Shown: in pieces, positions 21,440-46,964 of the stretch | How the letters are laid out: each line of letters begins with the position of its first letter | Position numbering within the stretch: the stretch's first letter is position 1 | Assembly: GCA_944388805.1 (NCBI GenBank) | Contig: CALXKE010000003.1 | Location: 27,480-91,479, forward strand | Reading direction: 5' to 3' | Length of the DNA: 64,000 bases | Source of the DNA: an uncultured Clostridia bacterium | Lineage (GTDB): Bacteria; Bacillota; Clostridia; TANB77; CAG-508 | Position numbers and translations under genes: made by a program | The notes under the pieces: generated by a model | What the model saw: only the letters and a program-made list of their open reading frames with translations | What the model was told of the DNA's origin: nothing | The model's database searches: none

Positions 21440-23536
21440 TTATTCCTCCTCTTTAATAATGTTCTTGCTACCAATATATGTTGCTAAGAAATATAAACCA
21501 TAGATAACACCAATAATAACTGCTGTTGCTATTACAGAAGGTAATAAATCACTTGGAGAGGCTAATGCAGCAAGCATTGATAATATAAATTTAATTCCAA
21601 ATATAGAATGTATAATCGCAAGAGCTAATGGTAACATGAAAAATATAAATATTTGTCTAAATAATGCTTGATTGATCATCTTTTCATCACAACCAATTTT
21701 TCTTAAAATTGTATATCTTTGTTTGTTATCAGAACTTTCTGTCAATTGTTTTAATGCTAAAATGGCAGAACTTGCAATTAAGAAGATAACTCCTAGATAA
21801 ATGGCAATAAATATAATAATCGTTGCTAATCCTTTACTTGCTTCTATTAAACTAATTTTTGTCATGCCCTCTAGTTCTATACCTTTTTGTTCTAAGTTTT
21901 CCAAAAAGGTATTGTTATTTGTTTCTGATAATGTTTTTTCTATTTCTTCTTTTTCTTCATCAGTTTTAGCATTATAATTTGCTGCTAAAAATTCTTCTTC
22001 TTTCCATTCTTCTTTTAATTCAAAATTATCTGGAACTAATATAATTCCTGTATTTACATGACTTGCAGACATTTCAATAAATCCACTCTTACATTCATTA
22101 TATTTAGCATGTAAAGTTTTTCCTTCAATTTGTACTGTTGAATTTTGTTTTAATGCTTGATTTCTTAATTCTGTCATATTATCAAAATCGCAAAGGACAA
22201 TATATTCATCTTCGTTTAAGCTATATTGTTCTTGTCCATAAAGTTCTGCAATTTTATTATAATCAGATACTTTGATAATTTCTTCTGGTAAATCATACAT
22301 AAGCATTGAAAATTGTGCTTTTGCTTGTTCATAATAAGTTCCTAAACTATATTTTAAAGTCCATTCTGGAATTGTATAAACTGAAATTTCTACTATATCT
22401 TTTAAATTATTCATATCATAACCATTGGTTTCTAATGTGTAACTAACTGGTTGTTTTGAATCTTCAATTTGCTCTTCTGTAGGATATATCATCTGACCTG
22501 TATAAGAATCTTCATAACTTTGTGGTAAATTTGCTGTTTTATATAAATTGACATCTACTGGTGTCATTTCTTGCAATTCTGAATCCATTGTTGTTTGGAT
22601 AGATAAACTACTAGATAAGACACTTATGGTCATAAATAGCATTAAGCAAATTACAGACATACTAATAACGGTTGTATTAATCTTATTATTCAATTGTCTT
22701 AATACAAACATATTGGTTCCTTTAAGATATATTTTTTTACTTGTTTGTATCATTCTTAGTATAAATCCTGATAAAGACCAAAATACGCCTATTGTTCCTA
22801 CAATTCCCATTAAAATTGGTACTAACATTTTTTCTTCTGTATTTAATTCATAGATGCCACCTGTAACTATATAATATGCATATCCTAATAATCCTGCTGA
22901 AATTAAGAATACAATAATAGAAATGATTGGATTTTTTATTTTTACCTTTTCATTTTTTCTAACAGCTGTTAATAAATTAATTAATTTGTATCTTGAAATA
23001 GTAAGTGTATTAAATATCATAACTGCTAAATACATAACGGCAAAATAAATACATGTTTTAATACAAGCATCTTTTGAAAATACAAAGGTAAATTCACTCA
23101 TATCTGCTTGAAAAAGTTTGGCTACTAGTATAGACATAAATTGTGAGCCAAATACACCTATAAAAATACCAACAATTAATGAAATGATTCCTACTAATAT
23201 GGTTTCTATCAATATAATTTTGGATATTTGTCTTCTTCCCATTCCTAATGTCATATAAACACCAAATTCTCTTTTTCTTCTATTTACTAAGAAATTATTG
23301 GCATATACAATTAAAAATCCAAGTACAATGGCAATAAATACAGATACCATTCCTAACATACTAATCATGAGTTTTATCATATCTCTTGTAGATTCAGATA
23401 CTTCTAACATAGCTTGTTGACTATCTAAAGAGTTAAACATATAAAAGATTGCTACACCTAATACTAATGTTAAAAAATAAATGGCATAATCTTTAAAACT
23501 CTTTTTCATGTTTTTAACAGATAATTTAAATAACAT
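21440..23536 (-). CDS. BceB/YxdM-type ABC transporter permease (FtsX family)
   Basis: 698 residues. Layout: helix 1 (about 17-37), helices 2-4 with FtsX motif NNFLVNRRKREFGVYMTLGM (about 80-100), helices 5-7 to about 310, a large extracellular domain of about 250 residues (about 311-560), and helices 8-10 with YTILRKIGCDEKMINQALFRQ. Ten helices and a big loop before helix 8 are the signature of BceB-like permeases, which bind peptide antibiotics or their lipid II complexes and signal to a partner histidine kinase. It overlaps the ATPase gene by 11 bp. Confidence 0.93.
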   Translation of the reverse strand: MLFKLSVKNMKKSFKDYAIYFLTLVLGVAIFYMFNSLDSQQAMLEVSESTRDMIKLMISMLGMVSVFIAIVLGFLIVYANNFLVNRRKREFGVYMTLGMGRRQISKIILIETILVGIISLIVGIFIGVFGSQFMSILVAKLFQADMSEFTFVFSKDACIKTCIYFAVMYLAVMIFNTLTISRYKLINLLTAVRKNEKVKIKNPIISIIVFLISAGLLGYAYYIVTGGIYELNTEEKMLVPILMGIVGTIGVFWSLSGFILRMIQTSKKIYLKGTNMFVLRQLNNKINTTVISMSVICLMLFMTISVLSSSLSIQTTMDSELQEMTPVDVNLYKTANLPQSYEDSYTGQMIYPTEEQIEDSKQPVSYTLETNGYDMNNLKDIVEISVYTIPEWTLKYSLGTYYEQAKAQFSMLMYDLPEEIIKVSDYNKIAELYGQEQYSLNEDEYIVLCDFDNMTELRNQALKQNSTVQIEGKTLHAKYNECKSGFIEMSASHVNTGIILVPDNFELKEEWKEEEFLAANYNAKTDEEKEEIEKTLSETNNNTFLENLEQKGIELEGMTKISLIEASKGLATIIIFIAIYLGVIFLIASSAILALKQLTESSDNKQRYTILRKIGCDEKMINQALFRQIFIFFMLPLALAIIHSIFGIKFILSMLAALASPSDLLPSVIATAVIIGVIYGLYFLATYIGSKNIIKEEE

Positions 23537-24293
23537 CGTTCAAATCACCTCCAAGAAGTGTTTGTACTTCAATTATCTTTTCAAAGAATTGTTTTCTAGT
23601 ATCTTCTCCTTTTACTAGTTCATTAAAGATTTTTCCATCTTTAATGAAAATAATTCTATCTGCATAACTTGCTGTAAAGGCATCATGTGTAACCATTAAA
23701 ATGGTTGCTCCTAGATTTTGATTTAAATGTTCAAATGTTTCCAATAATTGTCTTGCGGATTTACTATCTAATGCACCTGTTGGTTCATCTGCCAAGACCA
23801 TTTTAGGATTTGTAATAATGGCCCTTGCTGATGCTACTCTTTGTTTTTGTCCTCCTGATATTTGATATGGATATTTATTTAAAATATTTGAAATTTCTAA
23901 TTTTTCCGCTACTTCTTTTACTTTTTTATCAATTTCATGTGCATTTACTTTTTGAATAGTTAATGCCAAAGCTATATTTTCATAAGCAGTTAATGTATCT
24001 AATAAGTTAAAATCTTGAAATATAAATCCTAATTCCTCTCTTCTAAATTTGTTTAACTTATTTCCTTTTAGTTTGGTAATATCTTGATGATTGATGATAA
24101 TGTTTCCTGCTGTTACTCTATCAATTGTTGAAATACAATTTAAAAGTGTTGTTTTTCCTGATCCTGATGCGCCCATGATTCCAACAAATTCTCCTTCTTC
24201 TACATTAAAGCTAATTCCTGCAATGGCTTTTGTTAAATTTGATTTGTTTCCATAGTATTTTTCTATGTTTTTGACTTCTAATACATGACTCAT
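23526..24293 (-). CDS. BceA/YxdL-type ABC transporter ATPase
   Basis: 255 residues, MacB/BceA-type ATPase. Walker A GASGSGKTT (about 40-48), Q-loop FIFQDFNLLDTLTAYEN, signature ISGGQKQRVASARAI (about 145-159), Walker B MVLADEPTGALDSKSA, H-loop MVTHD. It powers the permease encoded next. The operon has its own promoter (24482-24510), a BceR-type site and a 120-bp palindromic repeat between start site and ribosome-binding site (AGAAAGGAAT). Confidence 0.95.
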   Translation of the reverse strand: MSHVLEVKNIEKYYGNKSNLTKAIAGISFNVEEGEFVGIMGASGSGKTTLLNCISTIDRVTAGNIIINHQDITKLKGNKLNKFRREELGFIFQDFNLLDTLTAYENIALALTIQKVNAHEIDKKVKEVAEKLEISNILNKYPYQISGGQKQRVASARAIITNPKMVLADEPTGALDSKSARQLLETFEHLNQNLGATILMVTHDAFTASYADRIIFIKDGKIFNELVKGEDTRKQFFEKIIEVQTLLGGDLNDVI

Positions 24294-24324
24294 TTAATTT
24301 CATTCCTTTCTTTAGGCACAAATT

Positions 24325-24446
24325 ACTTGGAAAAGAATTGTGCTTTTGGCTAGGCAGACAAGTCCAAAATCAATGAGGCGTGCTTTTGCACGTTGATTTG
24401 ATTTTGGATGAAGTCTAACAACGCCAAAACGCAATTATTTTTCAAG
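24325..24446. repeat. Family A long palindromic leader element, copy 1
   Basis: Outer arms ACTTGGAAAAGAATTGTGC (24325) and GCAATTATTTTTCAAG (24431-24446) with TTTTGGC/GCCAAAA; inner arms CCAAAATCAA (24364-24373) and TTGATTTTGG (24398-24407), then CGTGC-TTTT-GCACG at the tip (24379-24392). It ends just before the tail TTTGTGCCTAAAGAAAGGAAT (read on the minus strand), which supplies the ribosome-binding site of the ATPase gene. Confidence 0.75.
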
Positions 24447-24481
24447 CTTGTAAACCTCCATTTATCTTTTATTCTATATTT

Positions 24482-24510
24482 ATTATACGGCTTATTCTTT
24501 TTTCTTTCCA
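24482..24510 (-). promoter_or_regulatory. Promoter of the ABC transporter operon
   Basis: TGGAAA (24505-24510), 17-bp spacer, perfect TATAAT (24482-24487). The weak -35 fits an activated promoter. The transcript would carry a leader of about 180 nt containing the family A element. Confidence 0.65.
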
Positions 24511-24531
24511 TTGTTTAATCTTACATTTATC

Positions 24532-24545
24532 TTACATTTTTGTAA
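24532..24545. promoter_or_regulatory. BceR/YxdJ-type regulator binding site (candidate)
   Basis: TTACA-TTTT-TGTAA, a perfect fit to TNACA-N4-TGTAA, 45 bp upstream of the -10 box. A second half-site CTTACAT lies 11 bp away (24520-24526 and 24531-24537 are direct repeats). The response regulator at 27338 is the natural partner. Confidence 0.65.
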
Positions 24546-24548
24546 GGT

Positions 24549-24690
24549 AATTGTGCGTTAACGAAATCAAAGATTTCGACGCACACATGTGAAGACTGCT
24601 TCGCAGTACTTCACAAATATAGGAAGCCTACCTTGTTGTATACGAAAAAATCCACATAGGGTCAAGATAAAAGTCGATTTCCTATACAAT
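24549..24690. repeat. Tandem hairpins, related to the intergenic repeat families
   Basis: First hairpin: TGTGCGT/ACGCACA plus CGAAATC/GATTTCG (24552-24585). Second: GTGAAG-CTGC/GCAG-CTTCAC (24587-24617). Then TTGTATA (24635) and TATACAA (24683) can pair across a loop, ending TATACAATAAAG, a tail shared with 39248 and 6371. No gene is visible. Confidence 0.55.
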
Positions 24691-24696
24691 AAAGAA

Positions 24697-24726
24697 AAGG
24701 TAAGATATTTTTTGTATCTTACCTTT
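24697..24726 (-). terminator. Terminator of the higBA operon
   Basis: AAAGGTAAGATA and TATCTTACCTTT form a perfect 12-bp stem with loop TTTTTTG-type, 27 bp after the antitoxin gene. A degenerate copy lies at 26262-26298 on the other side of the cassette. Confidence 0.7.
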
Positions 24727-24752
24727 AAACAATCTATCTCTTTTTTATTAAT

Positions 24753-25844
24753 TTATTCTTTCCATTTATATCTTGTTTTTAAATTACTATATTTATCATA
24801 TGGTAAAAGATTATCATTTTGTAATCTTCCTATTAACACAAATTCTTTTATCTTATTTTGTTGACTAAATTCTTTTATACTTTCTATTGAAAAGTCTTTT
24901 TTCTGTATATATTCCTCATATTTATCACTACTTATTAAAAAATCTTTGGCAAAATTATCTGCTATATCTTCTGCCTTCGTATTTTCAATATAATAATCCA
25001 ATTTATTTTCTTTGATATCATCATTTAATATATGTCCTATTTCATGAAATAATGTAAACCAAAAAATATCAGCATATGATTGTCTTATTGTCATACATAA
25101 TATAATTCTGTCATTTTTATTCTCTATAAATCCCTGTATAGGCGCTCCTTGAAAATTCTTTACTAACTCAAATATAATTCCACACTTCTTAAATATTTCC
25201 TTTAATTTTTGTATCATCATATTAGGATTTTCTTCAAACATTAATTGTTTAATATCTTGTAAATAATTCTTTAATTTTTTACTATCATATGCATCTTCAA
25301 CACTTTCTTTTTCAGCTATTAATTCACATACTCTTTGCCATGCATATAATACATATTCATCGACTTGTATATTTTTTGCAGCTCGATAAGCCACTTTTGT
25401 TATTAATAGTTTTTCTATATTTAACAAATTATTTGTTTTACAAAGATTTCTAGCTATAATGACTTCTTCAGTAGTATTATTATATTTATTTATTAAATTT
25501 AATAAGATAGCATATTCTAAAATAGGTTCTATTCTTTTTGTAATCTCTATTTCTCTTTTATCAATATTATTTTTTTCTTGATATTCAATAATTTCTTTGT
25601 CATATATTGCTTGTAAATTTAACCAAAATGTAAATTTTACTCCAAAGACATATTCCAATGCCTTAGCAAATTTGGGTGAAATTCCTTTTTTCCCGTTTAT
25701 CACTTCACTAATATGTTTGGCAGAAAAACCTGTTCTTTCTGCCAACTCTTCTTGATTCATATTATTTTCTTCTAATTTTTCTTTTATACTTATTCCTGGA
25801 TGTATAATAAAATCAAGGGATAAGCCAGTTATACTTGTCTCCAT
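24753..25844 (-). CDS. HigA-type antitoxin fused to ImmA/IrrE-like metallopeptidase domain
   Basis: 363 residues. An N-terminal XRE helix-turn-helix (about 18-70: MNQEELAERTGFSAKHISEVINGKKGISP) resembles HigA antitoxins. A middle helical region leads to an IrrE/ImmA domain with the zinc motif FHEIGHILND (HEIGH 267-271). The DNA-binding part should repress the operon and neutralise the toxin; the peptidase-like part may trigger antitoxin turnover or regulator cleavage, as in phage ImmA. The start overlaps the toxin gene by 32 bp, which implies coupled translation. Confidence 0.9.
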   Translation of the reverse strand: METSITGLSLDFIIHPGISIKEKLEENNMNQEELAERTGFSAKHISEVINGKKGISPKFAKALEYVFGVKFTFWLNLQAIYDKEIIEYQEKNNIDKREIEITKRIEPILEYAILLNLINKYNNTTEEVIIARNLCKTNNLLNIEKLLITKVAYRAAKNIQVDEYVLYAWQRVCELIAEKESVEDAYDSKKLKNYLQDIKQLMFEENPNMMIQKLKEIFKKCGIIFELVKNFQGAPIQGFIENKNDRIILCMTIRQSYADIFWFTLFHEIGHILNDDIKENKLDYYIENTKAEDIADNFAKDFLISSDKYEEYIQKKDFSIESIKEFSQQNKIKEFVLIGRLQNDNLLPYDKYSNLKTRYKWKE

Positions 25845-26130
25845 GATAATCTATCACTCCTCTCACAATTATTTTTTGGTTACCCTTAGGCATTACTACC
25901 AATCTATAATTTCCTGTAATCCCAACACCAAAATATCTTTTCAGGTTGCCTTTTAAAGGATGTGGTTTTCCAAAACCATATTTCATAAATTCTTGGAAAT
26001 TTTCTGTTGCTTCTATTTGATTAAATCTTAATTTAACCATCTTAGCTAATTCTATGCCTATTATTTTTCTTAATTCTTCCATATTTGACATTTTCTTTTG
26101 TATCTCATGATTATGCCATTCTATTTCCAA
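25813..26130 (-). CDS. HigB/RelE-type toxin
   Basis: 105 residues. The C-terminal half has the HigB/RelE fold signature: PHPLKGNLKRYFGVGITGNYRLVVMPKG and VRGVIDYHGDKY (KG-L-YxV-I-NYR and DYH of the family). Such proteins are mRNA interferases that act on the ribosome. The start is TTG at 26130 after AAAGGAGG at good spacing. Toxin-first order is typical of higBA. It has its own consensus promoter and a palindromic operator. Confidence 0.82.
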   Translation of the reverse strand: MEIEWHNHEIQKKMSNMEELRKIIGIELAKMVKLRFNQIEATENFQEFMKYGFGKPHPLKGNLKRYFGVGITGNYRLVVMPKGNQKIIVRGVIDYHGDKYNWLIP

Positions 26131-26157
26131 GTTCTTTCCTCCTTTTGTATCTTGTTG

Positions 26158-26172
26158 TTACCTATTAGGTAA
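26158..26172. promoter_or_regulatory. Palindromic operator of higBA
   Basis: TTACCTATTAGGTAA, a perfect 15-bp palindrome starting 4 bp downstream of the -10 box; a natural site for autorepression by the HTH antitoxin. Confidence 0.7.
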
Positions 26173-26176
26173 TTAA

Positions 26177-26205
26177 ATTCTATCATATACTTATATATAT
26201 GTCAA
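26177..26205 (-). promoter_or_regulatory. Promoter of higBA
   Basis: Perfect TTGACA (26200-26205), 17-bp spacer, TAGAAT (26177-26182). Confidence 0.8.
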
Positions 26206-26254
26206 TGCTATAGAATTTTTTCTTTAAAAAATAAAACTATTTATGTTGTCCTTG

Positions 26255-26285
26255 ACAAAAAAAGATAAGACATTCTTTATATCTT
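26255..26285 (-). terminator. Weak terminator after the histidine kinase gene
   Basis: AAGATA (26262-26267) can pair with TATCTT (26280-26285), and the minus strand continues with seven T. The stem is short and A/T only, so termination may be partial. Confidence 0.4.
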
Positions 26286-26324
26286 ACCTTTTAAATATAT
26301 ACAATTTAAAAATCTATTTTTCAA

Positions 26325-27341
26325 CTACTTCAAATTTGTATAACTATTTTTAGGAAATATAATCCTTACTTCTGTTCCTTTATCTTTTTCTGAATTCAAT
26401 TCTATTCCAAGACTTAATTTATCACATAATTTTTTGCACAAGTATAAACCAATTCCAGTAGATTTTTGTCCTATTAATCTTCCATTTTCTCCTGTAAAAC
26501 CTCTTTCAAATACTCTTGTGATTTCTCCTTTTTTTATTCCAATTCCATTATCTTGTATGTATAAAATGACTTTATCGTTTTTGGATTTTGCAAATATCTC
26601 TATTTTCTTATTTTCATCTTTAGAATACTTGATTGCATTTTGTATAATTTGGTTAATAATAAAAGTTGCCCATTTACTATCTGTATAAACTTCATGTTCT
26701 AAATCTTTTAATTCCAAAGCTACTTTTTCATTTAGTAATGTAGTTTTATTTTTTAATATAGCATTATTTACAATTTCTTTTAGATTGTTTTTGGTAATAA
26801 TATAGTCTTTTTCAACGGCATTGCTTCTTGCATAAAATAAGGCTTGTTCTGTATAATTTTCTACCTTATCTAGTTCTTCATCTATACTTTTGGTTACTTC
26901 ATTTTTATGGTTTTCAATAATCATTTTACTTGCCGCAATTGGTATTTTTACTTCATGGATCCATAATTCTATATATTCTTTATAATCTTCCTGAATACGT
27001 TTATAGTAATTTACATTTTCAAGCATAGACTTTCCTGCATCTAGCATGACTTCTTTTAAAATTTTGCCTTCTGTAAAATTAGCGTTTTTTATAATTTCAG
27101 AAATCAAATACTTTTCATGTAATTCTTCCATATTATTTTTTAATTGATTATAAAAATGTTGTTTTCTTTTATATTCAACAAATATGGAAATGGATACAAC
27201 GATAATGATAATAGCAGCTATGTAAATTTGTGCAATAATTCCGATTTGATAAGCCAATAATAATATTTCTATACTAATTAAGGCTAATAGAACACTTACA
27301 ATTAACAATACTTTATCTTTTATAAAATCACTAAATTTCAT
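26325..27341 (-). CDS. Intramembrane-sensing histidine kinase, BceS/YxdK type
   Basis: 338 residues. Two N-terminal helices (about 11-31 and 35-54) with almost no extracellular loop, as in BceS-like kinases that sense through the partner ABC transporter. Phospho-accepting H129 lies in IELWIHEVKIPIAASKM; the ATPase domain has the N box (INQIIQNAIKYS), G1 (IQDNGIGIKKGE) and G2 (GQKSTGIGLYLCKKL). Its ATG overlaps the regulator stop by 4 bp. The gene is cut off from its transporter genes by the toxin-antitoxin cassette. Confidence 0.93.
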   Translation of the reverse strand: MKFSDFIKDKVLLIVSVLLALISIEILLLAYQIGIIAQIYIAAIIIIVVSISIFVEYKRKQHFYNQLKNNMEELHEKYLISEIIKNANFTEGKILKEVMLDAGKSMLENVNYYKRIQEDYKEYIELWIHEVKIPIAASKMIIENHKNEVTKSIDEELDKVENYTEQALFYARSNAVEKDYIITKNNLKEIVNNAILKNKTTLLNEKVALELKDLEHEVYTDSKWATFIINQIIQNAIKYSKDENKKIEIFAKSKNDKVILYIQDNGIGIKKGEITRVFERGFTGENGRLIGQKSTGIGLYLCKKLCDKLSLGIELNSEKDKGTEVRIIFPKNSYTNLK

Positions 27342-28009
27342 TTTAATATATACCCCTGTCCTCTTTTGGTTTCTATTCTATCATGTAATCCTAATTCTTC
27401 TAGTTTTGTTCTTAGTCTTTTTATATTGACATTTAATGTATTATCATCAATAAATTCTTCACTTTCCCATAAATAATCCATGATTTCATCTCTTGATACC
27501 ACTTCATTTTTATGAGTACTTAAATAGTATAAAATAGTATATTCATTTTTTGTTAAGCCCATTTTCTGATTATCTTTTTCTATAGTTCTTTCTGCTATAT
27601 TTAATACAAAATCATGACAGTCAATTTTTTCTGGATTTCTTCCTGCATTTTGATTTCTTTTTAATAAACCATTTATTTTTGCAAGTAATATTTGTATATT
27701 ATATGGTTTTGTAACATATTGGTCTGCTCCATAATTTAGACTCATTAATTCATCAATTTCATTATCTCTACTTGTTACCATAATAATTGGCACATTAGAT
27801 ACTTTTCTTACTTCTTTGCAGACAAATTCTCCATCTGTATATGGTAAATTAATATCTAGTAATACCAAATCTGCATTTTCATCTAATATATCTTGTATTG
27901 TATTATCAAAATTTTCTAATCCTTTTGCTTCAAATCCATTTTTATTTAAAAATGTTTCTAATTCTTGTCTTAGTTTTTTATCATCTTCAACAATTAATAT
28001 TTTACTCAC
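27338..28009 (-). CDS. OmpR/PhoB-family response regulator, BceR/YxdJ type
   Basis: 223 residues. Receiver domain with acidic pocket E8-D9-D10, phospho-acceptor D52 (VLLDINLPYTDG), conserved T and K (IMVTSRD, QYVTKPYN), then a winged-helix domain with LTKNEYTILYYL and DDNTLNVNIKRLRTKL. Start is GTG at 28009. It should bind the inverted repeats at 24532 and perhaps 18675. It forms an operon with the kinase gene. Confidence 0.94.
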   Translation of the reverse strand: MSKILIVEDDKKLRQELETFLNKNGFEAKGLENFDNTIQDILDENADLVLLDINLPYTDGEFVCKEVRKVSNVPIIMVTSRDNEIDELMSLNYGADQYVTKPYNIQILLAKINGLLKRNQNAGRNPEKIDCHDFVLNIAERTIEKDNQKMGLTKNEYTILYYLSTHKNEVVSRDEIMDYLWESEEFIDDNTLNVNIKRLRTKLEELGLHDRIETKRGQGYILK

Positions 28010-28136: not shown

Positions 28137-29723
28137 TTATTTCGTCAAATGTTTTAATTTTATGAGTTCATTAAATTCTTCCTCAAGCTCTTTTTTTCTT
28201 TTCTCATCTTTTGTCATTGCTAATTCTGAAGTAATTTGTGATATCTTAAAATCTAATAATAGTTTATCATTTTCATTTTTACTTTGTTGTTTTTTACTTC
28301 TTTCTTTTTCATATTGTAGATAAGAAGAATAATTTCCTTCATATTCTATAATTTTATGGTTTTTTATAACTAAAATATCTGTTGCAATATGATCAATAAA
28401 TGTTTTATCATGTGTAACAAATAAAATCGTTCCATTATATTCTTTTAACAATTCTTCTAAACTTTCAATGGATTCTATATCCAAGAAATTAGTAGGCTCA
28501 TCTAATATCAGTAAATTATTGTCTGATACCAATATCTTAGCAATCGATACTTTTACTCTTTCTCCACCACTTAAATCTTTTATGTTTTTTTCTAAGTCTT
28601 TATCTTTGAATAACAAATTTGCTAATATATTTTTTACAATCATTTCTGATTGATTCGTATCTTGCATGACATTTTGTAATACATTTTTACTAAAATCTAA
28701 GTTTGAAAAATCCTGCGAAAAATATCCTATTTTTATATTCGGATTTACTCTTATATGACAATTTCCATTTATGATTTGATTGATCAGTGTTGTCTTTCCT
28801 GCTCCATTTTCTCCTATTAAAGCTGTTTTTCGATTGGTTTTGATAACACAACTTGCATGTTCAAATAATTGTTTTTCTCCTAATTGGATATTTAAATTTT
28901 CAATACGGATTGCTATTTTATTTTTTGTATTTTCTTTTGTTTGATATTTCATATATATTTTTTGATTGTTTTGTGGTTTTTCTTTTACTTCTAGTTTTTC
29001 TAATCTAGTTTGCAAGGCATTTGTGTGTCCTTCCAATTTTTCTCTTATGTTTTCAACACCTCTTTTATGCAATCTTGCTTCAGAATTTCCCATTCTTTTG
29101 GGCGTTTTTCGAATTTCTTTTGCTGTATTTTTTGAAACATGAATCGCTTTTTCTAATCTTTGTTTTTCATTTATATATTGTATATATTCCAATTCTTTTC
29201 TTTTCGTTTCAGCCTCTTTTTGTAACTTATATTTTGAATAATTTCCTTCATATCTTTTTACTTTTCCATCTTTTATTTCTATAATGGCTGAACAAATTTC
29301 ATCTAATAGACTTCTATCATGAGATATGATTAATATTGTTCCTTGATATTTTTTTAATTCTTTTTCAATATGACTAATCCCATTCCTATCTAAATTGCTT
29401 GACGGTTCATCTAGTAATAGGATGCCATTTTGATGTAATACTTTTTGATGAAATGCTTCTTTCTTCTTCTCTCCGCCGCTTAAACTCTTATTTTCATAAT
29501 TAATTTCTTCAAATTGCTCCATATATATGATATTTTGCTTACGAATAATTTCTCCTGTATCTGGCTCTATTCTTCCAGCTATGATGTTCAATAAAGTAGT
29601 TTTTCCTGATCCGTTTTGTCCTACTATTCCTATTTTTTCATTTTCATATACTTTTAAATCTTCAATTTCTAATATCTTTCTATCACCATAATATTTTGAT
29701 ATATTTTTTAATTCTAATACCAT
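28137..29723 (-). CDS. ABC-F ATPase, antibiotic-resistance (ribosome protection) type
   Basis: 528 residues with two ABC domains and no membrane segments. Domain 1: GQNGSGKT (35-42), LSGGEKKKE (81-89), LLLDEPSSNLD (102-112). A long charged linker (about 180-255, EIRKTPKRMGNSEARLHKRG) is the interdomain arm that reaches the ribosomal P/E site. Domain 2: GENGAGKT, LSGGERVKV, LDEPTNFLD. The Lys/Glu-rich C terminus is as in Vml/Lsa/Vga-type proteins, which release pleuromutilins, lincosamides and streptogramins A. The true start is MVLELKN at 29723; an in-frame ATG at 29744 lies in the loop of a hairpin that hides the ribosome-binding site. Confidence 0.9.
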   Translation of the reverse strand: MVLELKNISKYYGDRKILEIEDLKVYENEKIGIVGQNGSGKTTLLNIIAGRIEPDTGEIIRKQNIIYMEQFEEINYENKSLSGGEKKKEAFHQKVLHQNGILLLDEPSSNLDRNGISHIEKELKKYQGTILIISHDRSLLDEICSAIIEIKDGKVKRYEGNYSKYKLQKEAETKRKELEYIQYINEKQRLEKAIHVSKNTAKEIRKTPKRMGNSEARLHKRGVENIREKLEGHTNALQTRLEKLEVKEKPQNNQKIYMKYQTKENTKNKIAIRIENLNIQLGEKQLFEHASCVIKTNRKTALIGENGAGKTTLINQIINGNCHIRVNPNIKIGYFSQDFSNLDFSKNVLQNVMQDTNQSEMIVKNILANLLFKDKDLEKNIKDLSGGERVKVSIAKILVSDNNLLILDEPTNFLDIESIESLEELLKEYNGTILFVTHDKTFIDHIATDILVIKNHKIIEYEGNYSSYLQYEKERSKKQQSKNENDKLLLDFKISQITSELAMTKDEKRKKELEEEFNELIKLKHLTK

Positions 29724-29725
29724 AA

Positions 29726-29760
29726 AAACTCCTCCTTTAATCATATTAAAGAAGGAGTTT
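29726..29760 (-). promoter_or_regulatory. Hairpin sequestering the ABC-F ribosome-binding site
   Basis: In the minus-strand RNA, AAACUCCUUCUUUAAU pairs fully with AUUAAAGGAGGAGUUU (16 pairs, one G-U) around the loop AUG. The 3' arm is the Shine-Dalgarno sequence of the ABC-F gene. The stem runs into UUUUU, so it could also act as a terminator. Confidence 0.8.
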
Positions 29761-29856
29761 ATTATCTATTATTTTAAATCTCATCTCATTTTCGCATTTA
29801 TATTCTTATATATGTTCACTTATTTAATAGTTTTGTACATAAATTTTAAAATTTGC

Positions 29857-29921
29857 ATTATTAATAAACCATTCTAAAATATGATTACCTCTTATTTTAT
29901 TTGTTGTAGTTTATTAATAAT
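29857..29921 (-). promoter_or_regulatory. Leader stem overlapping the upstream ORF
   Basis: GTTTATTAATAAT (29857-29869, minus strand) is a perfect 13-bp complement of ATTATTAATAAAC (29909-29921), which forms codons 2-6 of the leader ORF. A ribosome on the leader ORF would prevent this stem. Confidence 0.6.
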
Positions 29922-29927
29922 AATCAT
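29892..29927 (-). CDS. 11-codon leader peptide upstream of the ABC-F gene
   Basis: ATG at 29927 reads MIIINKLQQIK then TAA. GGTGGG lies 4 nt before the ATG. It lies in the 235-nt leader between the promoter and the ABC-F gene, like the stalling leader peptides of several ARE ABC-F genes. Expression is inferred, not shown. Confidence 0.5.
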   Translation of the reverse strand: MIIINKLQQIK

Positions 29928-29965
29928 TTTCCCACCATTTTAACCTTTCTTTTTAATTCCTTTTT

Positions 29966-29994
29966 ATTTTACCATATGTTTATTTATTTTTCAA
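29966..29994 (-). promoter_or_regulatory. Promoter of the ABC-F gene
   Basis: TTGAAA (29989-29994), 17-bp spacer, TAAAAT (29966-29971). It gives a long leader holding the small ORF and both hairpins. The 334-bp gap 29745-30078 is thus fully accounted for by this leader, its promoter and the DedA terminator. Confidence 0.65.
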
Positions 29995-30021
29995 TAAAAA
30001 CTTTCCTTATATTTAAGTAAT

Positions 30022-30051
30022 AAAATAGCGTACCATATGATACACTATTTT
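30022..30051 (-). terminator. Terminator of the dedA-like gene
   Basis: AAAATAGTGTA and TACGCTATTTT pair over 11 positions (one G-U) on the minus strand, 27 bp after the stop. Confidence 0.65.
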
Positions 30052-30078
30052 GTTATTAAATTTATTATTGAATAACTA

Positions 30079-30735
30079 CTAATCTGTTGAATCTCCCAAA
30101 TAATATATTTTTTTCTTGAAAATAAACTTGTTTGTTTTTTTCCAATAGAATAATAAACAACCAATAACAAAAGCAATTGCTAATACGGTTAATGTAATAT
30201 GAGAATATTGATCAAAAATTGCAAGCATATTTGCCCAATTTTCTCCTACGATATTTCCAATTGTTAATAGAACTGTATTCCAAACAGCAGATCCTGATAT
30301 AGTATACATTAAAAATTTCCCCATAGACATTTCACTCATTCCTGCTGGTATAGAAATTAAACTTCTAACAATAGGAATAAATCTGCAGAAAAACACCGTT
30401 TTGTTTCCTTTTTCATCAAACCACTTATCTGCTTTATCAATGTCTTCTGTTTTTAATCTAAGTATTTTTCCCACTTTTCCTGAAACTAATTTTTTTAGTC
30501 TTTCTTTATTTAATATTCTTCCTACATAATATAGCACAATGGCACCAACTAATGATCCCAAAGTTGCTGATATAATCATGATAACAATATTTAATCCTGT
30601 ATAAGTAGTCATAAATCCACCAAATAATAAAACTGCTTCTGACGGAATTGGTGGAAAAATATTTTCTACCGCTATTAATAAAAATACACCTAGATATCCA
30701 AATTGTTCCATTATAGATAACATGATTTCTTGCAT
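30079..30735 (-). CDS. DedA-family membrane protein
   Basis: 218 residues, four to five helices. Family motifs: VENIFPPIPSEAVLLFGGF (about 23-41), LGSLVGAIVLYYVGR (about 59-73) and CRFIPIVRSLISIPAGMSEM (about 116-135). Some DedA proteins recycle undecaprenyl phosphate across the membrane; others affect proton motive force and cationic peptide resistance. Position between the glycan locus and the resistance genes fits a lipid-carrier role, but this is inference. The ATG follows AGGAGAAAACAT. Confidence 0.92.
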   Translation of the reverse strand: MQEIMLSIMEQFGYLGVFLLIAVENIFPPIPSEAVLLFGGFMTTYTGLNIVIMIISATLGSLVGAIVLYYVGRILNKERLKKLVSGKVGKILRLKTEDIDKADKWFDEKGNKTVFFCRFIPIVRSLISIPAGMSEMSMGKFLMYTISGSAVWNTVLLTIGNIVGENWANMLAIFDQYSHITLTVLAIAFVIGCLLFYWKKTNKFIFKKKIYYLGDSTD

Positions 30736-44377: not shown

Positions 44378-46964
44378 CTCTATTTTTTTCCTTTCTTAAA
44401 TAAACATGATTTGAGATTAATAAGAAATTAGAAAATTTCCTATTTTGGAAAAATACTTTTTCACACACTACAAGCCCTATTCCTATTAAAGTGATGATCA
44501 TACCTATATAGAAACCTTCTGGACAATAAACAAATTCAATTGTGTGTTCTCCTTTTTCAATATCAATTCCAATTAAATTTTCTGCAATTATTTGTTTTTC
44601 TACACTTTTACCATCTATTTTTACTGTCCACCCCTTATCATTGATAATAGATGTTAAAAGCAATCCTGATTCTTCTGCTTGAATCGTTCCTTTTAGATAA
44701 TGACTCTTATTTTCTTCTATATCTAACTGTGTTGTTTTTAATTTGTCATACATTTTTCTCCATACTTTAGGATGAAATTCATAACACTCCCAATTAAATC
44801 CTTTAAATGATTCTTTGTCTATTTTTATTATTGTATTCTTTGCTTCTTTTGGAATATACACTACATTACTTGCTTCTGCATTAACTTCTGAAGCAGATAC
44901 ATAACTCTTTCCATCTACATAAATGGTAACACCTTTTGTTGAACCATTGACAAGTTGATAAACAATATAATATTCTTTTTCATTTTCGTTTTGGATTTCT
45001 ATTGTTATGCCATTTTCATCTTCTTTTATGGTACTGACTTCTTCTTTTGGTACATTTGAAAATGCATCTTCTTGAATGCCAGTAATTCCTTTCAATAAAT
45101 GATTTTGATTTTCTAAAGGCTTATTGTCTTCTAATTCTATATATTTTGCTTGCTCATTTACCATAAATCCTATTGATAAGGCATATGGGTTTTTCAACAA
45201 TTTTACTTGTCCATTATTTTCTATTTCTTCATATGTTTCATAATTTTGATCTTCCACCCTATCTTCTCGAAGAATTGTATATTTGATTCCTAATAATGAA
45301 TTCATTGGTAAAGTCACTTTACTAGCGTTTTCTGTTATTAAATTTTGTCTGATTCCAAAGTCTGTTAAAAAGTCTTTATTTGCCTTTCCTGAAGTAGAAC
45401 TATAATGTCCAAATCCATTATAGTGATATAACATAGAATCATTAATACTTCTATATTCTTCACTATTTATACGATAAAAATCATTTTCTTGAGATTTATA
45501 TTTTTGAATGATATCATTTACTTTATTATATGAATTTACAAATTTTTCTCTTTTTACATAACTGATTTGATTTGTAATCTGATATCCATTTATAATCATT
45601 TCCAGGCAAACAAATATGATTAATGCTATTTTGAATATCTTTTTTATTTTATCCTTCTTACTATTTACATAAAAATAAAGTTGGCCTAATATAAACAAAC
45701 ATAAAATCGTAATGACAACATTGTTATTGGTAATATATTCTGGATATAACTTTCCAAATAAGGCTATGATGATATTTAATACAATTTGTCCTATCCATAA
45801 TATTTTTAACTCTATTCCCTTTTCCATATTTTTACTAGCTAAAACAATCATAAGAAAACTAAATACAAACGAATATCTAAAAGGAAACCATACAGGACTT
45901 TGTAGCATATGGAATACTAAGTTCAAAGGAACCAATACAAATGCCAATATGATAATAGCCATCAAAATAAAGTTTACGATTTTTTCTTTCTGCTTAATAT
46001 TCTTGTTTAAAAAATATGTAAAACATAATAATAAACTCAAAGATCCACAATAAATATTCGGTGGACCAAATACCAATTCATCTCGTGAAAACGCACCTAT
46101 CGTAATTTTGGAAAGAGCATCTAATGGATTAAAGTAAGTATCTATTTCAAAATTACTTGCTTGAATATCTGCTTTACTGTTGATTAAATTGATTCCTACT
46201 GGCAATAGTAATATAGCGGTAATTAAAATTGCAAAAATGCTTGCTTTACAATATATAAAAAATACTTTTCTAAATTGTTTCCAATAGTCTTTTTTGTTTG
46301 TGCTTTCAGTTTTTATGACTAAATTTGCAATGAAATATAATACCCCAAATACACCTATCATATAGCCAATATAAAAATTAGAAAAAATAGCTAATGACAA
46401 AAATATCAAATACACATTATATTTTTGTTCCTTAATAATTTTTTCTAATCCTAACATAACCAGTGGTAAATATATCACACCATCTAACCACATAATATTT
46501 TGTGAATATATGATGTTATAACTCATTAAAGCATACATGACTGATAATGCAATAATTTGATAGTTTTTTAATTTGGTTACTTTTGACAAGTATATGGCCA
46601 TTGTTGTTCCTGCAAGGCCTATCTTTATAATATTTAAACATAGTATGGCTTCTAATATATATTCTTGTTTAAAAAAACATAAAATAATATTTAGAGGACT
46701 AGAAATATAATAAGCAAATAGTCCATATGCATTACTTCCCAAATTCATAGAAAAATCATAAAATATACTTGCATTGTCAAAAAATATATTTCTAAAATAT
46801 GCCAAGTAATTGATATATTGTCCTGACATATCCATTGTTAGAATTGTCTTATCACCAAATGGATACATTCCTGTTAGGGCATATATCATCCCCATACTAA
46901 TAGATGATATGATAAACGTTATCACACTTAGTTTCAAGGTTCTTTTCAATTGCGCTTTTTCCAT
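44364..46964 (-). CDS. YfhO-family membrane protein
   Basis: 866 residues from ATG at 46964 (6 nt after GGAG; a GTG four codons upstream overlaps that site). Helix 1 is followed by GMYPFGDKTILTMDMSGQYINYL, the conserved first outside loop of YfhO; about 12-13 helices reach to about 480, followed by a 350-residue extracytoplasmic domain and a last helix near 840. YfhO of Bacillus glycosylates lipoteichoic acid together with GtcA/CsbB-like partners, so a GT-C role fits here. Confidence 0.9.
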   Translation of the reverse strand: MEKAQLKRTLKLSVITFIISSISMGMIYALTGMYPFGDKTILTMDMSGQYINYLAYFRNIFFDNASIFYDFSMNLGSNAYGLFAYYISSPLNIILCFFKQEYILEAILCLNIIKIGLAGTTMAIYLSKVTKLKNYQIIALSVMYALMSYNIIYSQNIMWLDGVIYLPLVMLGLEKIIKEQKYNVYLIFLSLAIFSNFYIGYMIGVFGVLYFIANLVIKTESTNKKDYWKQFRKVFFIYCKASIFAILITAILLLPVGINLINSKADIQASNFEIDTYFNPLDALSKITIGAFSRDELVFGPPNIYCGSLSLLLCFTYFLNKNIKQKEKIVNFILMAIIILAFVLVPLNLVFHMLQSPVWFPFRYSFVFSFLMIVLASKNMEKGIELKILWIGQIVLNIIIALFGKLYPEYITNNNVVITILCLFILGQLYFYVNSKKDKIKKIFKIALIIFVCLEMIINGYQITNQISYVKREKFVNSYNKVNDIIQKYKSQENDFYRINSEEYRSINDSMLYHYNGFGHYSSTSGKANKDFLTDFGIRQNLITENASKVTLPMNSLLGIKYTILREDRVEDQNYETYEEIENNGQVKLLKNPYALSIGFMVNEQAKYIELEDNKPLENQNHLLKGITGIQEDAFSNVPKEEVSTIKEDENGITIEIQNENEKEYYIVYQLVNGSTKGVTIYVDGKSYVSASEVNAEASNVVYIPKEAKNTIIKIDKESFKGFNWECYEFHPKVWRKMYDKLKTTQLDIEENKSHYLKGTIQAEESGLLLTSIINDKGWTVKIDGKSVEKQIIAENLIGIDIEKGEHTIEFVYCPEGFYIGMIITLIGIGLVVCEKVFFQNRKFSNFLLISNHVYLRKEKNRDGKV

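Follow-up and report, generated by a model that had tools for sequence, protein, structure and literature searches.

The 64,000-nt stretch of DNA analyzed here (the window, to which all coordinates refer) derives from an uncultured Clostridia bacterium (TANB77; CAG-508) and corresponds to positions 27,480-91,479 of the forward strand of CALXKE010000003.1 in assembly GCA_944388805.1. It contains an intact gene on the minus strand whose product scored 494 bits against NCBIfam NF000355 (cut-off, 380) in a profile search, identifying it as an ABC-F ribosomal protection protein. Because the protein scored below the cut-offs of both the Vga model (564 of 725) and the CplR model (516 of 780), we claim neither name for the gene and refer to it only as Vga/CplR-like. 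The closest solved structures are 7nhl, a lincosamide-streptogramin A resistance protein, and 7nhn (Lmo0919). Upstream of the leader, on the same strand, lies a gene for a DedA/VTT-domain protein. Downstream of the ABC-F gene (23526-28009, minus strand) are genes for a response regulator, a histidine kinase, for which SapS is the best model but with a score under its cut-off, and an exporter-type ABC ATPase; we take this set to resemble peptide-antibiotic sensing modules. Within the same region (24753-26130, minus strand), a gene with weak matches to the RelE/HigB and YoeB toxins, below the Pfam cut-offs, overlaps a gene whose N-terminus is of the HigA antitoxin type, scoring above the TIGR02607 cut-off, and which also has weak metallopeptidase matches; the two possibly form a toxin-antitoxin pair.

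The leader of the ABC-F gene is compact (Table 1). It comprises a candidate promoter, an 11-codon upstream open reading frame (uORF) preceded by GGTGGG, a stem that includes uORF codons, and a 16-pair hairpin that contains the Shine-Dalgarno sequence (SD) of the ABC-F gene. All four had been described in a first-pass annotation of this DNA and were recovered here, with the uORF stem amounting to 14 pairs rather than the 13 bp given there.

Table 1. Features of the ABC-F gene and its leader (window coordinates; promoter, binding sites, and RNA structures are predictions)
Feature	Position	Strand	Description
Promoter	29966-29994	-	TTGAAA 29994-29989; 17-nt spacer; extended -10 TG.TAAAAT 29971-29966
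Two-part uORF ribosome binding site	29931-29950	-	AGAAAGG 29950-29944 and GGTG(GG) 29936-29931
uORF	29892-29927	-	MIIINKLQQIK and stop; 11 codons; preceded by GGTGGG 29936-29931
S1, anti-antiterminator 5' arm	29908-29921	-	Within uORF codons 3-7
Anti-antiterminator inner 5' arm	29893-29899	-	Last uORF codons and stop; partner 29881-29875
Antiterminator 5' strand	29862-29885	-	AUCAUAUU-UU-AGAA-U-GGUUUAUUA
S2, anti-antiterminator 3' arm	29857-29870	-	First 9 nt shared with (3' part of) antiterminator 5' strand
Antiterminator 3' strand	29740-29764	-	Base, 5' arm, and loop of terminator hairpin
Terminator/SD-sequestering hairpin	29726-29760	-	16 bp, 3-nt loop; arms 29760-29745 and 29741-29726
SD of ABC-F gene	29731-29738	-	AAAGGAGG; within hairpin 3' arm
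U5 run	29724-29728	-	Ends beside ABC-F start codon
ABC-F ribosomal protection-type gene	28137-29723	-	Intact; start codon 29723-29721

Within the genus, 22 of 97 genomes, the window's own included, encode an ABC-F protein matching at an E value of 1e-60 or better. Among 33 related loci, 31 have the same leader, while L022 and L065 lack the uORF half. The alignment used below (A2) consists of 30 distinct leaders: L022 and L065 were dropped, L042 and L045 are identical, repeat loci (such as L009-L015, L017, L018, L069, L070, and L072) were counted once, and L027-L032 were left out as broken or because their ABC-F protein is more distant. L041, L024, and L074, which the pattern missed, were added by hand, the latter two after trimming of an inserted hairpin. 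A2 covers relatives with ABC-F proteins that are only ~46-56% identical, and the near named relatives are metagenome assemblies. In L022, the SD hairpin is retained; because the uORF half of this leader is replaced by the apparent end of another gene, its control by drugs may have been lost.

Near the leader, six promoter-like matches compare with 5.1 expected, and such matches as a class are thus not above chance; TTGAAA-17-TAAAAT is the top of the six. A loose promoter pattern lies upstream of 24 of the 30 leaders and TGnTAnnAT upstream of 25, with the window counted in both cases. The uORF and its putative binding site are conserved throughout the alignment. A uORF of 9-16 codons is present in 30/30 leaders (27 by pattern and L041, L024, and L074 separately), GGTG precedes it in 29/30, and the [ACG]GAAAGG element is found in 27/30; of the three leaders without it, L024 and L074 had lost it through trimming. 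The two parts of the site, AGAAAGG and GGTG, are 7 nt apart in the window. In L024 (3220-3273, minus strand) and L074 (1287-1345, plus strand), GAAAGGT and AAAGGTG are separated by a hairpin, GTTAGAT...ATCTAAC, and several relatives at the class level have AGAAAGG-GTA/GCA-AGGT instead. Taken together, the two parts resemble a single extended SD, presumably complementary to the 3' end of 16S rRNA, that is interrupted by a looped-out insert; the patterns tried located that 3' end neither in the window's own genome nor in any of 21 genomes.

The encoded peptide seems unimportant apart from the strand that pairs, because the amino acids at codons 8-10 differ between leaders, while the conserved codons fall in S1. 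For the same reason, peptide-specific arrest on the uORF is not supported. In some relatives (L020, L023, L024, L026, L064, L066, and L067), the uORF begins with M[RK]I. An overlapping MVGK reading frame ahead of the uORF was discarded as a conserved feature, its ATG being present in just 16 of 27 leaders.

The hairpin at the end of the leader stands out energetically. Its arms, AAACUCCUUCUUUAAU and AUUAAAGGAGGAGUUU, form 16 of 16 possible pairs, and its local fold has a predicted energy of -18.6 kcal/mol compared with a mean of -2.4 and a best value of -8.8 kcal/mol among 500 shuffled sequences; the leader as a whole folds with a z score of -4.65, which 0/200 shuffles equaled. A generic terminator scan called no terminators and left this hairpin with its five-U tail uncalled. 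Our reading is that the AAA at the foot of the stem engages three of the five U residues, so that the remaining tail is too short for the rule. In A2, 96.5% of 479 cells of this hairpin are paired, and its covariation score was matched by 0/500 shuffles; by the pair-type count, its covariation is ordinary (matched by 305/500). Here and below, the cells are not independent events, as the rows of A2 include close relatives. The in-frame AUG in the hairpin loop (29744), to which the first-pass annotation had drawn attention, does exist, yet no more than 9 of the 30 leaders, the window included, preserve its frame; in 10 the frame runs into a stop, 6 are in another frame, and 5 have no ATG. We therefore rejected it as an alternative start codon, and it is better explained as a pairing partner in the structure described below.

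Two further structures are predicted to involve the uORF half of the leader. In the anti-antiterminator, part of the uORF sequence would itself form one arm, with S1 pairing to S2 downstream and the last uORF codons forming an inner helix. In A2, S1:S2 is paired in 91.8% of 413 cells, with a covariation score matched by 0/500 shuffles, and sliding one strand by 1-3 columns reduces pairing to 27-61%. The number of S1:S2 pairs changed on both sides is four, an ordinary value that 94/500 shuffles matched. The inner helix is paired in 90.2% of 204 cells and shows weaker covariation (score matched by 8/500 shuffles). In the divergent leaders L026 and L067, the duplex of the uORF with S2 does not exceed shuffled sequences, of which 66/300 and 176/300, respectively, were as good.

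The second structure links the two halves of the leader. The first-pass annotation had seen by eye no clear alternative pairing between the two stems; such a pairing exists and covaries. It emerged when RNA truncated before the terminator's 3' arm was folded with the uORF start masked by a ribosome. In this antiterminator, a strand that includes nine nucleotides of S2 would pair with the base, 5' arm, and loop of the terminator hairpin, making it mutually exclusive with both the anti-antiterminator and the terminator. In A2, the antiterminator comprises 21 pairs, 11 of which have changes on both sides, and 93.2% of 619 cells are paired; 0/500 shuffles matched any of the five covariation measures, and slid versions pair in 40-53%. 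The outer helix, which engages the terminator loop, is paired in 97.9% of 233 cells, and 5 of its 8 pairs changed on both sides (0/500 shuffles), while the pair types of the loop helix were matched by 46/500. Variants of the loop helix preserve pairing: it reads AUCAUAUU/AAUAUGAU in most leaders, CACACU/AGUGUG in L023 and L025, and AUUAUGUU/AGCAUAAU in L064. This version supersedes an earlier one of nine pairs, replaced after constrained folding, whose counts were lowered because MAFFT had offset the terminator strand by at least one column in five rows (L023, L025, L024, L074, and L042). Across 39 leaders (37 distinct; 9 lie outside the alignment, 7 of them distinct), the antiterminator duplex has predicted energies of -16.2 to -22.0 kcal/mol. 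For three leaders outside the alignment, L130, L127, and L122, an equally good duplex arose in 1, 8, and 2 of 300 shuffles, respectively. When strands were exchanged among eight sequence groups, the own partner was the best in 5/8 groups for the antiterminator and likewise in 5/8 for the anti-antiterminator. Thus, the alignment of related leaders, which the first-pass annotation had proposed, reveals that anti-antiterminator, antiterminator, and terminator all covary in 30 distinct leaders.

Single helices may arise by chance in this leader because it is AU-rich (G+C of 0.21 in 29851-29949), and such sequence pairs easily. Together with the DedA-type gene upstream on the same strand, this could suggest that the hairpin is no more than the terminator of that gene and that uORF and stems are accidents of composition. 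Three mutually exclusive structures that covary are not what such accidents would leave; moreover, duplexes as good as the anti-antiterminator and the antiterminator of the window occurred in 5 and 15 of 2000 shuffles, respectively, and jointly in 0/2000. The uORF half was also turned into a covariance model (R1), many of whose training sequences lie in the genomes searched. R1 gave one match per genome in 38 of 194 genus genomes, and all 30 loci read among these 38 precede an ABC-F start codon (29 by script and L131 separately). We consider a terminator of the DedA-type gene the least plausible of the explanations weighed here, with a probability close to nil. In L119, L122, L127, and L128, the leader is retained although the ABC-F gene behind it is truncated within the stretch read. 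R1 also matched the window weakly at a second place (45731-45823; 27.5 bits; E, 0.0088); this match falls within an 870-aa open reading frame of the same strand and was judged to be due to chance.

Riboswitches also use transcription attenuators of this shape, and the leader might in principle bind a ligand or a protein, with the uORF being incidental. What is conserved, however, are the uORF, its binding site, and the pairing strands, with no further block between S2 and the terminator, and no Rfam family matched the window at its gathering score; in 29650-30080, the only Rfam match had an E value of 0.99 and lay on the other strand. We regard a riboswitch-like attenuator as highly improbable.

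To model a ribosome, the start of the uORF was masked in 37 distinct leaders, and the pre-terminator RNA was defined as ending with the 3' strand of the antiterminator; in L033, L016, L066, and L130, an upstream in-frame GTG was taken as the start, leaving the mask 6-9 nt short. With the ribosome in place, the pre-terminator RNA has an antiterminator probability above 0.5 in 37/37 leaders (lowest, 0.61; mean over the paired positions of the 5' strand) and, for the S2 part alone, in 32/37. Without it, the anti-antiterminator is more probable than the antiterminator in 29/37 leaders, exceeding 0.5 in 27, and is not favored in the remaining eight. In full-length RNA at equilibrium, on the other hand, the terminator hairpin forms in 37/37 leaders without the ribosome and in 31/37, the window included, with it. 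The central idea of the first-pass annotation, a leader-ORF attenuator in which a stalled ribosome could shift the folding, is well supported by conservation and covariation, and masked folding agrees with it as far as the pre-terminator RNA is concerned, but freeing of the SD in the finished mRNA is not predicted at equilibrium. Because the hairpin wins in full-length RNA despite the ribosome, the switch would have to be kinetic and, in most leaders including that of the window, could work only during transcription; without kinetic trapping of the antiterminator, the prediction is that the hairpin later conceals the SD once more. We infer such a trap because the loop, the natural foothold for the late-made 3' arm, is paired in the antiterminator.

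These folding results also bear on whether the leader acts purely by translational attenuation, as in ermC, with transcription running through, the hairpin merely hiding the SD, and a ribosome stalled on the uORF opening it. The SD lies entirely within the 3' arm, the U-run in the window is short and was not called as part of a terminator, and a C. difficile reporter with a mutated U-run stayed drug-regulated according to the parts of PMC10201436 consulted. Against this, a run of 4-7 U residues follows the hairpin in 30/30 leaders, and the SD hairpin stays shut at equilibrium in 31/37 leaders even with the uORF covered, so that opening of the SD needs a window during transcription, as in transcription attenuation. 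Overall, we find a purely translational mechanism unlikely.

Rather, we suggest, with high but not full confidence, that this leader belongs with the cplR/vmlR attenuators, which sense ribosomes and act on transcription, and that it has a translational lock in addition. In drug-free cells, 29857-29885 would be paired with S1 and the final uORF codons in the anti-antiterminator, the terminator hairpin would form, and RNA polymerase would stop at the U-run by the ABC-F start codon; in any RNA resulting from read-through, the SD would be locked in the hairpin. A ribosome held by an antibiotic on the first uORF codons would cover S1, and the segment thus freed would pair with the base, 5' arm, and loop of the terminator, blocking the hairpin and leaving its 3' arm with the SD single-stranded. 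With the loop occupied by the antiterminator, the 3' arm, which is transcribed late, would have small internal loops as its sole footholds, and the scarcity of footholds would help to keep the antiterminator trapped. The analysis shows that the elements are present and conserved and that the three structures covary; termination at the U-run and the stalled ribosome as the signal are inferred. By homology, pleuromutilins, lincosamides, and streptogramin A would be the acting drugs.

The length of the uORF may alter what is sensed. Because its stop codon lies beyond S1, the gene would be turned on solely by ribosomes halted early in the uORF, within its first few codons. We speculate, with considerable reservation, that this, combined with an antiterminator that engages the terminator loop and leaves the 3' arm hardly any foothold, makes the leader a position-gated, kinetically locked switch specific to this clostridial lineage. 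If so, slow termination would be filtered out, whereas in leaders with uORFs of 3-5 codons a ribosome waiting at the stop codon would cover S1 already. Such short uORFs occur at the class level, where 54 of 391 genomes match the ABC-F protein and 27 matches outside the genus were examined as loci. In a search that required the GAAAGG element upstream, 17 of the 27 loci have a uORF of 3-5 codons, eight have none, and one has no SD; 18 uORFs had been called, of which that of L081 was removed as being the main gene itself. For 11 of these 17 leaders, a duplex between a segment that follows the uORF and the region ahead of the SD is better than in at least 95% of 200 shuffles. L028, L030, and L031 encode a second ABC-F protein (~40% identical) behind a different leader with a six-codon reading frame, MIPRIW, and a hairpin starting with ATCACGAG, possibly another type of attenuator on a more distant ABC-F gene. 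Searches of viral contigs (by protein patterns) and of phages (by distant DNA search) found nothing at the sensitivities used, and all of 1241 plasmid records were below 60% protein identity.

If our model is correct, the window's lineage carries a silent ribosome-protection gene that is turned on during lincosamide- or pleuromutilin-type treatment. The leader adds a group of uncultured Clostridia to the bacteria with probable inducible control of ABC-F genes and provides, within one lineage, covariation evidence for all three structures of the switch, most of all for the antiterminator. Among the titles listed by an open-access literature search, none dealt with the leader of this lineage, and the parts of PMC11109978 and PMC13009471 that were consulted contain nothing on it.

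The arrangement, which the first-pass annotation had not recognized from other systems, has a close precedent in cplR of C. difficile, for which the sections of PMC10201436 available to us describe a uORF in a 5' hairpin, an antiterminator, and an SD-sequestering terminator that reaches to the start codon, where RNA ends were mapped; the switch was tested there by reporter mutations. The leader described here shares with it the uORF in the 5' hairpin, the antiterminator as the alternative, the SD-burying hairpin, a putative terminator, at the start codon, the Vga/CplR-type ABC-F gene, and a comparable length (212 nt in cplR, about 236 nt here, counted from the predicted start). It differs in its uORF: that of cplR is MRI, three codons, versus 11 codons here and 9-16 in 30/30 distinct related leaders, and MIIINKLQQIK does not conform to the three-codon consensus MR[I/M] of C. 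difficile-type cplR leaders. That study argues for drugs that arrest ribosomes early and almost regardless of sequence context, and the variable codons 8-10 in our leaders fit this. In vmlR of B. subtilis (PMC9226507, in the parts consulted), a uORF-containing anti-antiterminator, an antiterminator, and an intrinsic terminator form a switch for which a drug-stalled ribosome is the signal, the logic of which was tested by mutation and which includes a NusG-dependent pause hairpin. The same logic would apply here, with the stalled ribosome as the probable signal; in contrast, the uORF of vmlR, MIN, has three codons, and its terminator (SL-3) and SD stem (SL-4) are separate, whereas one hairpin would serve both roles in our leader. 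A longer uORF (14 codons) overlapping an anti-antiterminator, together with a terminator/antiterminator switch, is found in hflXr (rli80) of L. monocytogenes; that gene belongs to a different family, and its leader peptide contains an RLR macrolide-stall motif that MIIINKLQQIK lacks (PMC6310831, likewise in part). Finally, streptococcal msrD has uORF-controlled termination ahead of an ABC-F gene, as proposed for our system, but relies on stop-codon stalling by a specific peptide, MYLIFM, and the terminator is reportedly unwound by the stalled ribosome itself; the main text of PMC10314930 nowhere uses the word anti-terminator. Altogether, the plan of the switch is not new, and the window's lineage represents a well-supported further case with a longer uORF.
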